This document shows positions 35,689 to 58,315 of a stretch of DNA of 64,000 nucleotides, in pieces (position 1 is the stretch's first letter; each line of letters begins with the position of its first letter). The notes beneath the pieces were generated by a model. That model did no database searches. It was not told the origin of the DNA and was given only the letters and a program-made list of their open reading frames with translations. Origin of the DNA: Rhodopseudomonas pentothenatexigens (GTDB taxonomy: Bacteria > Pseudomonadota > Alphaproteobacteria > Rhizobiales > Xanthobacteraceae); the NCBI RefSeq assembly GCF_900218015.1, contig NZ_UFQQ01000003.1:1-64000 (forward strand). The letters are read 5' to 3'. The position numbers and the translations under genes were made by a program.

Positions 35689-35720
35689 TTATTTCGCAGC
35701 ACGCTCTCTATCCCCCCTGC

Positions 35721-35758
35721 CCCCCGCTCTTGCGGCGGGGAGGGGTCGGGGGTGGGGG
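35721..35758. repeat. Left inverted repeat of DUF559 unit A
   Basis: A 38-base element with a hairpin part (CCCCGC...GCGGGG) and a G-rich tail (GAGGGGTCGGGGGTGGGGG) pointing toward the DUF559 gene. It matches the reverse complement of 36125-36162 at 37 of 38 positions. Confidence 0.9.
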
Positions 35759-35778: not shown

Positions 35779-36174
35779 ATGGCACGCACGGTTGACCAGC
35801 GGATCGAACGAGCTAGGAGCCTTCGTCAAAATCCGACGGACGCCGAGCGGAAGCTGTGGCAGCGACTGCGTCGATCCGCCTTCAGCGAGGTTCATTTCCG
35901 CCGCCAGGCGACGATCGGGCCTTACTACGCAGACTTCGCCTGCCATGCCCTCCGCCTCGTCATCGAACTCGATGGAGGCCAGCACGCAGAATCAGCCGCC
36001 GATGTAGTCCGAACCAGCTATCTCCATGCGGCGGGCTATCGCGTTTTGCGTTTCTGGAATAACGATGTCCTGAACAACATCGACGGTGTGATGCAGACGA
36101 TCGTAGACGCCGTCCGCGCGGCTCCCCCCACCCCCGACCCCTCACCGCCGCAAGAGCGGGGGGAGGGGAGTTAA
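35779..36174 (+). CDS. DUF559 endonuclease-like protein (unit A)
   Basis: Single-domain PD-(D/E)XK nuclease-like protein (DUF559, related in fold to Vsr), 131 residues from the ATG at 35779. Seen: RQNPTDAERKLWQRLR, FRRQATIGPYYADFAC and LVIELDGGQHAE, where Asp of ADFAC and Glu/Asp of IELDGG form the presumed metal site. Then RVLRFWNNDVLNN. The last 16 or so codons (PTPDPSPPQERGEGS) are the flanking repeat read through. An earlier GTG at 35752 lies in the left repeat. It sits between ugpB and ugpA, codirectional, and its stop is 3 bases before the ugpA ATG. Function unknown. Confidence 0.85.
   Translation: MARTVDQRIERARSLRQNPTDAERKLWQRLRRSAFSEVHFRRQATIGPYYADFACHALRLVIELDGGQHAESAADVVRTSYLHAAGYRVLRFWNNDVLNNIDGVMQTIVDAVRAAPPTPDPSPPQERGEGS
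36125..36162. repeat. Right inverted repeat of DUF559 unit A
   Basis: Mirror copy of 35721-35758 (37 of 38 bases). It overlaps the 3' end of the DUF559 reading frame. The purine-rich end just beyond it (GGGGAGGGGAG, to 36170) lies 7 bases before the ugpA ATG and can act as its ribosome binding site. Confidence 0.9.
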
Positions 36175-53828: not shown

Positions 53829-53852
53829 AGGCCCGCCACCGGGTTGATCGTC

Positions 53853-53916
53853 ATCGCCGGACTTGATCCGGCGATCCATCTTTCAAGCGCGATGGATGCC
53901 CGGGTCACGCCCGGGC
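53853..53916. repeat. Three-hairpin intergenic repeat between rplT and pheS
   Basis: Hairpins: ATCGCCGG (53853-53860) with CCGGCGAT (53868-53875); ATCCATC (53874-53880) with GATGGAT (53891-53897); GCCCGGG (53898-53904) with CCCGGGC (53910-53916). It resembles a common palindromic intergenic repeat of this bacterial group. It ends 12 bases before the pheS Shine-Dalgarno GGGGAG. Confidence 0.8.
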
Positions 53917-53943
53917 ATGACTACATTGGGGAGTGGCTTCGCC

Positions 53944-55026
53944 ATGTCGAACCTTCAAGACCTCCAATCCCAGATCCTCGCCGACATCGCCGCGGCGGTT
54001 GATGAAGCCGCGCTGGAAGCGGTCCGTGTCGGGGCGCTCGGCAAGAAGGGCTCGATCTCGGCACTGCTCGCCACCCTCGGCAAGATGGACCCGGAGCGGC
54101 GCAAGACCGAAGGCGCCGCGATCAATCGCGCCAAAGAGGCGGTGACCGAGGCACTGGCCGCCCGCCGCGACGTGCTGAAGGCGGCGGCGCTCGACGCCAA
54201 GCTGGCCGCCGAAACCATCGACGTCACCTTGCCGATGCGCGAGCCGCTCGCCGAGCAGGGCCGGCTGCATCCGCTCAGCCAGGTGTGGGACGAGCTTACC
54301 GCGATCTTCGCCGACATGGGCTTCTCGATCGCCGAAGGTCCGGACATCGAGACCGACGACTACAACTTCACTAAACTGAACTTCCCCGAAGGCCACCCGG
54401 CCCGGGAGATGCACGACACCTTCTATTTCAACCCGAAGGAAGACGGCTCGCGCCTTCTGCTCCGCACTCACACCTCGCCGGTGCAGGTGCGGACGATGCT
54501 CAGTAAGCGGCCGCCGATCCGGGTGATCTGTCCGGGGCGCACCTATCGCAGCGACTCGGACCAGACCCACACGCCGATGTTTCATCAGGTCGAAGGGCTG
54601 GTGATCGACAAGGGCAGCCATCTCGGCCACCTGAAGTGGATCCTGCACGAGTTCTGCAAGGCGTTCTTCGAGGTCGACAACGTCAACATGCGGTTCCGTC
54701 CGTCGTTCTTCCCGTTCACCGAGCCGTCACTGGAAGTCGATATCCAGTGCCGCCGCGGCAAGGACGAGATCCGGTTCGGCGAAGGCGAGGACTGGCTGGA
54801 GATTCTCGGCTGCGGCATGGTGCACCCCAACGTGCTCACCGCCTGCGGTCTCGATCCCAACGAGTATCAGGGCTTCGCCTGGGGCATGGGCATCGACCGC
54901 ATCGCGATGCTGAAATACGGCATGAGCGATCTGCGGCAGTTGTTCGAAGCCGACGTGCGCTGGCTCAATCACTACGGCTTCAAGCCGCTCGACATCCCGA
55001 CGCTGGCGGGCGGATTGAGCTCGTGA
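53944..55026 (+). CDS. pheS: Phenylalanyl-tRNA synthetase alpha subunit
   Basis: Catalytic subunit of the alpha2beta2 class II synthetase, 360 residues. An N-terminal coiled coil (about 1-85) is followed by the catalytic core: [52 protein letters not shown], the motif 2 region [32 protein letters not shown] and motif 3 [14 protein letters not shown]. The ATG at 53944 follows GGGGAG; the frame is open to 53863 through the repeat. Confidence 0.96.
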
Positions 55027-55053: not shown

Positions 55054-55092
55054 GCCCTCACCCCAGCCCTCTCCCGCAAGCGGGAGAGGGGG
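55054..55092. repeat. Palindromic repeat r1 (+), DUF559 unit B
   Basis: CCCTCTCCCG/CGGGAGAGGG hairpin (55067-55090, loop CAAG) with a leading CCCTCACCCCAG tail. It is in inverted orientation to r2 at 55197-55234 and is 28 bases after the pheS stop. Confidence 0.9.
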
Positions 55093-55196
55093 CAGGCTGC
55101 GGCTTACGGAAGCTCATTGCCTGAACGCGGGCGTCAGTAATTGAGATGATAAGTTTTTGAGATGATTGACGACCTCGCAACGCCGCACGGCGAACT

Positions 55197-55234
55197 CCCT
55201 CTCCCGCTTGCGGGAGAGGGTTGGGGTGAGGGCG
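55197..55234. repeat. Palindromic repeat r2 (-), DUF559 unit B
   Basis: CCCTCTCCCG, CTTG, CGGGAGAGGG followed by TTGGGGTGAGGG. Tail points toward the DUF559 gene, 20 bases away. Reverse complement of r1/r3 type. Confidence 0.9.
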
Positions 55235-55254
55235 ACACGGGCACGGAGCTTGCG

Positions 55255-55758
55255 ATGGACGATCCGAAGCAGCCGACTCCGAAACCGAGCTGGAACGCCT
55301 CCCCGAGCCAGCACCGCCATGCGCGCGAGCTGCGAAAGAAGTCGACCGACGTCGAACGACTGATGTGGGCGGCGCTGCGCGACAAGCAGCTCAATGGCTT
55401 CTCGTTCAAGCGGCAGGTGCCGATCGGGCCGTATATCGCGGACTTCGCCTGCCACTCGGTGAAGCTCGTCGTCGAGCTCGATGGTGGTCAGCATTTTTCG
55501 GATGACGGTGAACGCGCCGATGCGGCCCGCACGGCGGCGATCGAGGCCCGCGGGTTTCGGGTGATCCGCTTCAACAATGCCGAGGTGATGAGCAATCGGG
55601 CCGGGGTGCTGCAGAGCATTGCAGATGTGCTTGCGGCAAGGGCCCCCACCCCAACCCTCTCCCGCAAGCGGGAGAGGGGGCTCGCCGATCGCGGGGATAA
55701 GCAGCGGCCTGCACCGAACGATACAACGCAGCGCTCGGCAACGGACGATGCGGACTAA
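55255..55758 (+). CDS. DUF559 endonuclease-like protein (unit B)
   Basis: Second DUF559 (PD-(D/E)XK, Vsr-like) protein, 167 residues from ATG 55255. Core: HARELRKKSTDVERLMWAAL, FKRQVPIGPYIADFACHSVK, LVVELDGGQHFSDDGE and FRVIRFNNAEVMSN; Asp of IADFAC and Glu/Asp of VELDGG are the presumed metal ligands. Roughly half of core residues agree with unit A. From about residue 129 the frame reads through repeat r3 (PTPTLSRKRERG) and adds a probably meaningless tail. An in-frame ATG at 55162 would translate r2. It splits pheS and pheT, codirectional with them. Confidence 0.85.
   Translation: MDDPKQPTPKPSWNASPSQHRHARELRKKSTDVERLMWAALRDKQLNGFSFKRQVPIGPYIADFACHSVKLVVELDGGQHFSDDGERADAARTAAIEARGFRVIRFNNAEVMSNRAGVLQSIADVLAARAPTPTLSRKRERGLADRGDKQRPAPNDTTQRSATDDAD
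55643..55681. repeat. Palindromic repeat r3 (+), DUF559 unit B
   Basis: CCCCCACCCCAA tail, then CCCTCTCCCG/CGGGAGAGGG hairpin. Same orientation as r1, inverted to r2, tail toward the nuclease core. Overlaps the 3' end of the DUF559 frame. Confidence 0.9.
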
Positions 55759-55797
55759 CGACATGGCCCGCAGCCCCTCCACCCAGCGCAGCGCGCT

Positions 55798-55835
55798 CCC
55801 TCTCCCGCTTGCGGGAGAGGGCTGGGGTGAGGGCG
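55798..55835. repeat. Palindromic repeat r4 (-), DUF559 unit B
   Basis: CCCTCTCCCG, CTTG, CGGGAGAGGG followed by CTGGGGTGAGGG. Forms a second inverted pair with r3 and ends 68 bases before the pheT ATG. Confidence 0.9.
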
Positions 55836-55903: not shown

Positions 55904-58315
55904 ATGAAGCTCACCCTCTCCTGGCTGAAGGATCATCTCGACACCGACGAGCCGCTCGATGTGCTCGCCGACAAGCTCACCATGATCGGGCTCGAGGTCG
56001 AGGGCATCGAGGACAAGGCCAAGGCTCTGGCGCCGTTCACCATCGCCAAGGTGCTGACTGCGGAGAAGCATCCCAACGCCGACAAGCTGCAGGTCTGCAC
56101 CGTCGACACCGGTGACGGCGGCGCGCCGGTGCAGGTGGTGTGCGGTGCGCCGAACGCGCGCGCCGGTCTCGTCACCGTGTTCGCGGCGCCGGGCACCTAC
56201 ATCCCGGCGAAGGATTTCACGCTCGGTATCGGCACTATTCGCGGCGTCGAGAGCCGCGGCATGTTGTGCTCGGCCGCCGAATTGCAGATCTCCGACGACC
56301 ACGACGGCATCATCGAGTTGCCGGCCGATGCGCCGGTCGGCGCCGCCTATGCGGCCTGGGCCGGGCTCGGCGATCCGGTGCTGGACATCAACCTGACGCC
56401 GAACCGGCAGGACTGCGCCGGCGTGCACGGCATCGCGCGCGATCTCGCCGCCGCCGACATGGGCAAGTTCAAGGATCCCGCCATCAAGCCGGTCAAGGGC
56501 GAATTCCCGTGCCCGGTCAGCGTCACCGTCGAAGACAGCAAGCTGTGCCCCGGCTTCGCGCTGCGGCTGGTGAAGGGCGTCAAGAACGGCCCGTCGCCGG
56601 AATGGCTGCAGAAGCGTCTGACCGCGATCGGCCTGCGCCCGATCAACGCGCTGGTCGACATCACCAACTACCTGACGTTCGATCGTTCGCGACCGCTCCA
56701 TGTGTTCGACGCCGCCAAGGTGAAGGGCAATCTGGTGGTGCGCCGCGCTCACGATGGCGAGACGCTGCTGGCGCTCGACGGCCGCACCTACACGCTGGAT
56801 TCGTCGGTCTGCGTGATCGCGGACGATCACGGTGTCGAATCGCTCGCCGGCATCATGGGCGGCGAGTTGTCCGGCTGCTCGTCCGAGACCACCGACGTGC
56901 TGATCGAATCGGCGCTGTGGAACGAAATCAATATCGCCCAGTCCGGCCGCAAGCTCGGCATCAACACCGATGCGCGTTATCGCTTCGAGCGCGGCGTCGA
57001 TCCGGCCTTCATGCTGCCGGGGCTCGAACTGGCCACCAAGCTGGTGATGGAGTTCTGCGGCGGAACGCCGTCGGACGTGGTCGTGGTCGGCAGCGCCTTC
57101 GGTGAAGACAAGATCATCGACTTCCCGCTCGCCGAGGTGAAGCGCCTCGCCGGCATCGAAGTGCCGCTGGTCGAGATTCGTCGCATCCTGACCCGCCTCG
57201 GTTTCGTCGTCGCCGGCCAGGGGCCGGTGGTGAAGGTCGCGGTGCCGTCGTGGCGCAGCGACGTTCACGGCAAGGCCGATATCGTCGAGGAAGTCGTCCG
57301 GATCGTCGGCGTCGACAAGGTGCCGCTGACGCCGTTCGAGCGTGGCGATGACCCGCGCAAGCCGGTGCTCACCCAGATCCAGAACCGCACCCGCCGCGCC
57401 AAGCGCGCGCTGGCGGCGCGCGGCCTGACCGAGGCGGTGACCTGGTCGTTCATTTCCAAGCCGTTCGCCGAAGCGTTCGGTGGTGGTCAGCCGGAGCTGG
57501 CGCTCGCCAATCCGATCGCATCGGATCTGTCCGACATGCGGCCGAGCCTGTTGCCCGGCCTGATCGCTGCCGCGCAGGCCAACGCCGATCGTGGCTCGCC
57601 GGATCTGGCGCTGTTCGAGGTCGGGCAGGTGTTCAAGGGCGACCAGCCGCAGGACCAGTTCATGGCCGCCAGCGGTGTCCGCCGCGGCGTCGCATCTTCG
57701 GCCGGCCTCGGACGTCATTGGTCGGGCTCGGCGCAGGCGACCGCGCTCGACGCCAAGGCCGACGCGTTCGCGGTGCTGGCCGCGGCCGGCGCGCCGATGG
57801 CGGGGCTGCAGATCGCCACCAACAAGCTGCCGGCCTGGCTGCATCCGGGGCGATCCGGCGCGATCCAGATCGGGCCGCAGAACGTGCTCGGCTGGTTCGG
57901 CGAATTACATCCGCGGGTGCTCGAACAGCTCGGTGCCGACGGTCCGCTGGTGGCGTTCGAAGTGATCCTGGAGAAGATCCCCGATCCGAAACAGCGCCCG
58001 ACCCGCGCCAAGCCGGCGCTGGAATTGTCCGCGTTCCATCCGGTGTCGCGCGACTTCGCCTTCATCGTCGAGCGCAAGGTCGCGGTCGCCGATATCGTCC
58101 GTGCCGCGCAGGGCGTCGACAAGAAGCTGATCACCTCGGTGGGCGTGTTCGACGTCTATGAAGGCAAGGGCATCGATCCCGACAAGAAGTCGGTGGCGAT
58201 CGCCGTGACGCTGCAGCCGCGCGACAAGACCATGACGGATCAGGAGATCGACGCGGTCGCCGCCAAGGTCGTGGCGGAAGTCACCAAGAAGACCGGCGGC
58301 AGCTTGCGCGGCTGA
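55904..58315 (+). CDS. pheT: Phenylalanyl-tRNA synthetase beta subunit
   Basis: Large subunit for tRNA binding and editing, 803 residues. It starts [19 protein letters not shown], has the EMAP-like tRNA-binding OB domain ([37 protein letters not shown]), the B3/B4 editing region ([20 protein letters not shown]), B5 and the C-terminal anticodon-binding FDX domain ([18 protein letters not shown]). GGAAG precedes the ATG. It is 877 bases from pheS, a gap filled by DUF559 unit B. Confidence 0.96.

Follow-up and report, generated by a model that had tools for sequence, protein, structure and literature searches.

A DUF559 nuclease gene bracketed by inverted triplex-type repeats between pheS and pheT, a candidate small mobile element

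The pheS and pheT genes in the window (the whole 64-kb stretch of DNA analysed here) are separated by a gap of 877 bases, from the end of pheS at 55026 to the start of pheT at 55904, in which four copies (r1-r4) of one 37-nt palindromic element alternate in orientation around a DUF559 gene. A second unit lies between ugpB and ugpA. The features of both units are listed below; for r1-r4, the plus sign denotes hairpin first and G-rich tail after.

55054..55090, minus: r1, TM/BoxC-type motif with hairpin and mirror tail; tail leftward, away from the DUF559 gene
55197..55233, plus: r2, left inner end of the pheS-pheT unit; tail toward the DUF559 gene
55255..55758, plus: DUF559 (PF04480) nuclease gene of the pheS-pheT unit; core 55309-55632; frame continues through r3
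55642..55678, minus: r3, right inner end of the pheS-pheT unit, inside the open reading frame; tail toward the DUF559 core
55798..55834, plus: r4, TM-type motif; tail rightward, away from the DUF559 gene
35714..35758, plus: left end of the ugpB-ugpA unit; repeat type differs from that of pheS-pheT; tail inward
35779..36174, plus: DUF559 gene of the ugpB-ugpA unit; core 35800-36114; start codon chosen by eye
36125..36168, minus: right end of the ugpB-ugpA unit; tail inward

The initial annotation had described four alternating repeats around a DUF559 gene in an 877-base pheS-pheT gap, and the coordinates, the orientations and the match of the open reading frame between r2 and r3 to PF04480 (125.7 bits at a curated cut-off of 20.6, E=9.2e-37) confirm this. 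The inverted pairs I1-I4 among r1-r4 are 91-97% complementary; the tails of the inner repeats r2 and r3 point inward and those of the outer repeats r1 and r4 outward. The likeness to the ugp unit that had been noted for r2 and r3 holds as well, with inward tails in both units and different repeat types. A scanner for the full motif returned r1-r4 as its sole matches in the 64-kb window and none in the reversed window; the ugpB-ugpA ends were missed because the stems there carry mismatches. A hairpin pattern allowing up to three mismatches matched 43 places in the 5.38-Mb source genome as compared to 0 for a control pattern, and many of these copies are intergenic, the contexts having been read for part of the 43. 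Just upstream of pheS, at window positions 53844-53927, lies a palindrome doublet of a different kind, ATCGCCGGACTTGATCCGGCGAT and ATGCCCGGGTCACGCCCGGGCAT, which we take to resemble the CGTC-tagged REP class (PMC3733652).

The DUF559 gene of the pheS-pheT unit comprises 167 codons plus stop if it starts at ATG 55255, the putative start codon, which is conserved in units of the same clade; the longest open reading frame begins at 55162. Median dN/dS values of 0.134, 0.092 and 0.116 at three sites point to purifying selection on the DUF559 gene. In 47 of 57 units of the genus, the DUF559 frame is open across the right-hand repeat (window 55634-55758 in the pheS-pheT unit), which therefore would encode C-terminal residues of the DUF559 protein. 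A predicted model of the 167-residue protein (pLDDT 85.5, from an alignment of 52 sequences) matched best, among PDB entries, the DUF559 protein 3hrl (E=1.5e-8), followed by 3r3p, the catalytic domain of the homing endonuclease I-Bth0305I (E=5.9e-4), and at a lower level Vsr (1vsr, E=0.034), and as modelled the protein is of the homing-endonuclease/Vsr fold type, PD-(D/E)XK. E. coli YcjD, Caulobacter VsrA and NGO0050 (PDB 3hrl) belong to the same domain family as the window protein. YcjD was one seed of the PD-(D/E)XK superfamily in a 2005 study (PMC1189080, available sections), and VsrA has been reported to be responsible for SOS induction in cells without the ScmA methylase (PMC12907096, available sections). 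No repeat association is described in the available sections of the published accounts of YcjD, VsrA and NGO0050, and another Caulobacter DUF559 locus (L215) does carry flanking repeats. Membership in a known anti-phage defence system was rejected, as PADLOC gave no match for the window protein or ycjD; for two DUF559 relatives it gave weak partial matches to Hhe and DpdF.

The ends follow the layout of pyrimidine arm, loop, purine arm, loop and purine tail mirroring the arm that characterises the BoxC/PIT/TM repeats. With A and T counted as alike, the tail is a mirror image of the hairpin's 3' arm: 278 ends were scored, 226 of them with a purine-rich hairpin, and among 137 distinct asymmetric arms the mirror match exceeded the direct match in 84 and the direct match the mirror match in 8, with 45 ties, or, counted by locus (69), mirror was favoured in 44 and direct in 5. 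Since the tail mirrors the 3' arm, the design is that of an intrastrand triplex. Many units possess a second hairpin between arm and tail, and its 47 distinct spacers show a mean stem of 5.66 as compared to 3.01 (maximum 3.45) in shuffled spacers; with stems so far above those of shuffles, the fold of the second hairpin is kept while its letters change. Judged by layout and letters, r1-r4 are members of the BoxC/PIT/TM intrastrand-triplex class, with which they share the hairpin plus G-rich mirror tail, near-identical letters (TMECO 1 as compared to r2), a dispersed intergenic location and the occurrence in inverted pairs. Contrarily, BoxC/PIT/TM repeats as described in the available sections of PMC4666352 have no nuclease gene, whereas the repeats here bracket DUF559 genes. 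Those sections of Holder et al. (2015) list E. coli copies, which resemble r2, and report triplex formation in vitro while not supporting a stable triplex in vivo; in inverted pairs of E. coli TM motifs, type A always occurs with type B, and high variability and small deletions are noted around E. coli TM sites (section 19). There, the origin of BoxC/PIT/TM is called unclear and no transposase or integrase remnants were found nearby; the words endonuclease, DUF and Vsr are absent from the main text (PMC4666352). An Rfam search gave one weak, irrelevant match. A G-quadruplex was retained as a second structural option only, the mirror design being what the asymmetric arms favour: the canonical G4 pattern is present in 68 of 114 genus ends and 47 of 104 ends of the wider sample, above mononucleotide shuffles, and this fit is not decisive because hairpin plus mirror tail already yields four G-runs.

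All five solo DUF559 genes of the source genome carry such hairpins, four on both sides and one (C39, L005) on the left only, and each of these units has its own repeat type. Two weaker PF04480 matches of this genome, in frames of 403 and 383 codons, have no such repeats. PF04480 matches were present in 16 of 16 genomes of the genus, from which 74 loci were sampled, namely 61 solo loci (>95 bits), 12 long-ORF controls and one truncated locus, other weak matches being left out. An inverted repeat with a score of at least 20 within 700 bp was found at 58 of the 60 solo loci with enough flank, in 16 genomes, as compared to 0 of 12 long-ORF DUF559 loci and 6 of 240 fake genes. The two low-scoring solo loci are G000:C39 and one locus of G004, and one solo locus of G006 owes its score to another repeat kind. 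A second kind of DUF559 gene (L006, L080-L090), with frames of about 400-465 codons, lacks flanking repeats, and its position was syntenic across the 12 loci compared. Clustering of the solo loci gave eleven groups; the ugpB-ugpA site accounts for two of these, the others including pheS|pheT, glyQ|glyS, metF|metH, pdhC|lpd and dnaN|recF (gene names assigned by reading translations). Between pheS and pheT, a DUF559 unit is present in 14 of 16 genomes, 13 with one clade and one (G001) with another clade and another repeat. An empty pheS-pheT site, proposed at the outset as something to look for, exists in G003, where the pheS stop overlaps the pheT start. In G005 (L095), a 699-base pheS-pheT gap holds an unrelated open reading frame, apparently for a membrane protein, instead of a DUF559 unit. 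Because the unit of one clade occupies an identical position in 13 of 16 genomes, there is no sign of recent movement, and the pheS-pheT unit looks vertically inherited.

Beyond the genus, the best 80 of 576 confirmed DUF559 loci from named genomes were analysed, 78 of them with flanks of at least 60 bp. Of these 78, 47 scored at least 20 within 300 bp, whereas none of 355 fake genes from these loci did; the 47 include a masked run of N (L226), a different long repeat (L248) and a locus of the same genus (L211). L248, a DUF559 gene of Legionella anisa, carries at its flanks, instead of triplex-type motifs, a different type of long inverted repeat (score 120). Hosts scoring at least 20 among these best 80 of 576 loci include Alpha-, Beta- and Gammaproteobacteria, SAR202, Dehalococcoidia, Binatia and Syntrophales, as well as Rickettsiales and Gastranaerophilales with 34-38% G+C; single host names may be wrong because many of the genomes are metagenome-assembled. 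The motif scanner was applied to 60 of the best 80 of 576 loci, those in which either flank extends over 2.4 kb. It found 96 motifs (8.0 per kb) in the first 100 bp from DUF559, 17 and 10 in the following two 100-bp bins, and 0.03-0.17 per kb beyond 300 bp (300-2500 bp). A motif was present within 300 bp on both sides in 36 of the 60 loci, on at least one side in 52 and on none in 8, and of 113 tails within 200 bp, 78 pointed inward and 35 outward. The possibility that the repeats are equally common elsewhere is thus contradicted by the density of the motif in the same loci, which is far higher beside DUF559, and the suggestion of independent units with one architecture is extended to inverted bracketing in many lineages.

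In E. coli, the DUF559 gene ycjD was reached via two E. coli records in a plasmid collection. A PF04480 control panel was not positive for E. coli although MG1655 has ycjD; members of the family can therefore escape this panel and perhaps also the family search. In MG1655, ycjD (1351407-1351760) lies between sapF and fabI, and by DNA similarity the gene occurs in 3365 of 5426 E. coli genomes. TMECO 9 (1351204-1351239, listed in the available sections of PMC4666352) is located 168 bp from the ycjD 3' end. A motif lies 145-183 bp past the 3' end in six of six strains scanned (CDS limits estimated for the first two loci), whereas the 5' side of the gene showed none in these six strains. In two of them, KE47 and S1-ESP-03-A, the 3' end of ycjD is overlapped by a motif that is intact and has its tail inward; at this place H240, MG1655 and D5 have a shortened form and SBF45 a variant form. 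The length of ycjD is 366 nt in S1-ESP-03-A and 354 nt in D5 and SBF45; a 2026 paper (PMC12817139, available sections) describes ycjD as 12 nt longer in ST69 and ST182 and places eefRABCD at this position in lineages that lack the gene. In S1-ESP-03-A, the annotated coding sequence of ycjD also terminates within the motif. In MG1655 (L322 1800-1930, gene on the minus strand), a second degenerate motif lies beyond the 3' end of ycjD, as does a partial copy of this end, and a separate hairpin that is not G-rich lies upstream of the gene. In 60 E. coli genomes sampled at even steps from 5108 records, near-identical places outside the ycjD locus had a median of 3 in the 39 genomes with ycjD as compared to 1 in the 21 without (Mann-Whitney p=1.6e-5), a difference that follows lineage and, as support for a role of ycjD, is weak evidence; E. 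coli genomes without ycjD also carry repeat copies. A Cedecea DUF559 gene has motifs on both sides with outward tails, and a DNA search of E. coli with this gene gave no match.

Besides full units, gene-less copies with two ends (about 100-130 bp) and single ends were found. Among 13 genomes compared at pdhC|lpd, the full unit was present in five and a single end in four; G003 and G001 have one hairpin there, and the site is empty in G014 and G009. The counts of pheST-type ends in five genomes of the genus were 32, 114, 57, 20 and 0. These forms, site states and counts fit the logic of RAYTs and REPINs. Terminal inverted repeats, as used to recognise insertion sequences and MITEs, are present. 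Comparisons at metF-metH and pdhC-lpd suggested short target duplications without proving them, and for two G000 doublets compared with contiguous sites in G007 and G015 a duplication reading is confounded by other repeats there; none of the site comparisons resolved a target-site duplication. Where G000 has pheST-type doublets, G007 and G015 have other palindromes (L160 as compared to L180; L020 as compared to L192), as if such intergenic spots were reused by different repeat families. In G009:C20, G090:C60 and G090:C111, ends of the same orientation recur at regular intervals of 188, about 219 and 196 bp, such as tandem amplification of whole doublets would give.

The repeat types follow the nuclease clades. 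In a tree of 60 DUF559 cores, in which many deep forks are unresolved, a single repeat type is paired with each clade. Units at pdhC|lpd and dnaN|recF belong to one clade and have the first hairpin in common, and pheS|pheT and glyQ|glyS each hold two unrelated combinations of clade and repeat. Protein distance and end-sequence distance are correlated (Mantel r=0.436, p=0.0001, 31 units), with host relatedness still contained in the correlation and several of the units being paralogues within one genome; the 31 come from 37 candidate units, namely 10 representatives of the genus and 27 loci from elsewhere in the family, and 21 of these 27 passed the end-detection cut. The similarity of own left and own right ends in 31 of 31 units is a biased measure because the ends were picked by that same alignment. 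The co-variation of repeat type with DUF559 subfamily that the initial annotation had envisaged was therefore found both in the core tree and by the Mantel comparison. These data also bear on homing, in which a free-standing DUF559 nuclease would cut an empty intergenic site and the unit would be copied in by repair, the triplex ends being boundaries or passengers. We regard this explanation as unlikely: the second-best fold match to I-Bth0305I, the location of units between conserved genes, the use of two sites by unrelated clades and the empty sites (pheS-pheT in G003; pdhC|lpd) are in line with it, whereas the match of the ends to the nuclease clade, the recurrence of one end design in many lineages and the gene-less two-end copies are left unexplained. 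The likeness to I-Bth0305I (PDB 3r3p) concerns the catalytic fold of the predicted model; unlike I-Bth0305I, the units are intergenic with inverted repeat ends, and cutting of a target is here only a proposal.

Repeats also occur without the matching nuclease. No match to the DUF559 of the window was found in 12 of 119 genomes of the family; three of these 12 have 21-25 copies of the repeat, one has 1 and eight have 0. The three are G086 and G106, complete single-contig genomes with 25 and 24 copies that are close relatives of the repeat, differing from it by one mismatch that is mostly at the last base, and G090 (91% complete), with 21 copies and no DUF559 match. G086 and G106 gave no match to PF04480, Y1_Tnp or PF18741, and PF18741, a related nuclease family considered as partner in DUF559-less genomes, was rejected, with no match in G086, G090 or G106. 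G005 has 20 copies, other DUF559 genes and no nuclease of the matching clade. Repeats without DUF559 may be relics after gene loss or may have spread by other means. Alternatively, the repeats may in general arise or spread by themselves (by slippage or fold-back repair) or via another factor, the DUF559 gene having been captured, regulated or tolerated by them, with a host role such as the repair of mismatches or structures. This would agree with the DUF559-less repeats of G086, G106 and G090, with the strong purifying selection on the DUF559 gene and with the small deletions and high variability around the motif in the available sections of Holder et al. (PMC4666352); against it stand the higher density of the motif beside DUF559 than elsewhere in these loci, the clade-specific repeat types and the paralogous units of one genome each with its own repeat, and we consider it still more doubtful than homing.

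A conventional REP/BIME (REPIN) system with a Y1 (RAYT) transposase as its mobilising enzyme, which the inverted doublets and single copies resemble in appearance, is largely refuted and most improbable, since the ends lack the GTAG or CGTC tag (tags as in the available sections of PMC3733652), Y1_Tnp exceeded the cut-off in only 2 of 12 genomes (G000, one match of 23.3 bits off the unit contigs; G009, two) and G005, G008, G086 and G106 have repeats without a Y1_Tnp match. With neither tag in the ends and no Y1 transposase match at the pheS-pheT unit, the view of the inverted pairs as BIME-type doublets had to be abandoned.

DUF559 genes are associated with triplex-type repeats; that the pair works as a system is what we infer. 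The initial annotation had proposed an undescribed repeat-nuclease system, of which the repeats are already known as BoxC/PIT/TM (PMC4666352, available sections), while the link between DUF559 and triplex repeats was not found in the open-access literature, judged largely from titles and abstract openings. Our preferred reading, to which we assign a probability of about 0.55, is that the unit is a small RAYT/REPIN-like mobile element in which the Vsr-like DUF559 nuclease would be the autonomous partner of the triplex repeats. The mobile-element reading is based on the bracketing, the match of clade and repeat, the mirror design, the site states, the gene-less copies and the purifying selection, and also on the motif at the 3' end of ycjD, the fold shared with I-Bth0305I and Vsr and the SOS induction reported for VsrA; counting against it are the repeats of G086, G106 and G090 without DUF559, the 8 of 60 loci without motif, the 35 of 113 tails pointing outward, the lack of a resolved target duplication, the rarity of DUF559 relatives on phages (2 of 50,697 records) and the static pheS-pheT unit in 13 of 16 genomes. 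The RAYT-REP/REPIN systems (PMC3116915 and PMC3733652, available sections) are alike in having a mostly single-copy gene between inverted palindromes and dispersed gene-less doublets and singles; their enzyme is a Y1 HUH transposase, whereas here it is a Vsr-like DUF559 nuclease with triplex-type ends that lack the GTAG/CGTC tag.

We propose that the element consists of a DUF559 gene between two inverted ends, each comprising pyrimidine arm, loop, purine arm, a short spacer or second hairpin and a mirror purine tail, and that the tail mirroring the arm would enable one strand to fold into an intrastrand triplex. When the ends become single-stranded during replication or transcription, the nuclease would recognise the fold-back ends of its own clade and nick or cut at these ends, and repair would subsequently place the segment spanning both ends, by joining or copying, in a different intergenic break. 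Copies without the gene would be moved in trans, in the way proposed for the movement of REPINs by RAYTs, and give rise to the dispersed BoxC/PIT/TM repeats. The wider proposition that DUF559 proteins including YcjD are the autonomous nucleases of widespread triplex-ended elements, with clade-specific recognition of fold-back ends and with the BoxC/PIT/TM repeats of hundreds of genomes as gene-less derivatives, is put forward tentatively, at slightly less than even odds.

The recurring pairing of DUF559 with triplex repeats suggests a possible source of the dispersed BoxC/PIT/TM repeats and names DUF559 as a candidate mobility gene for them, which is testable in K-12 through one gene, ycjD. 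If the mobile-element reading is true, the units would represent a new class of mobile element with an enzyme unrelated to RAYTs, and a biological role for triplex-forming ends as well as a function for DUF559 would be provided.
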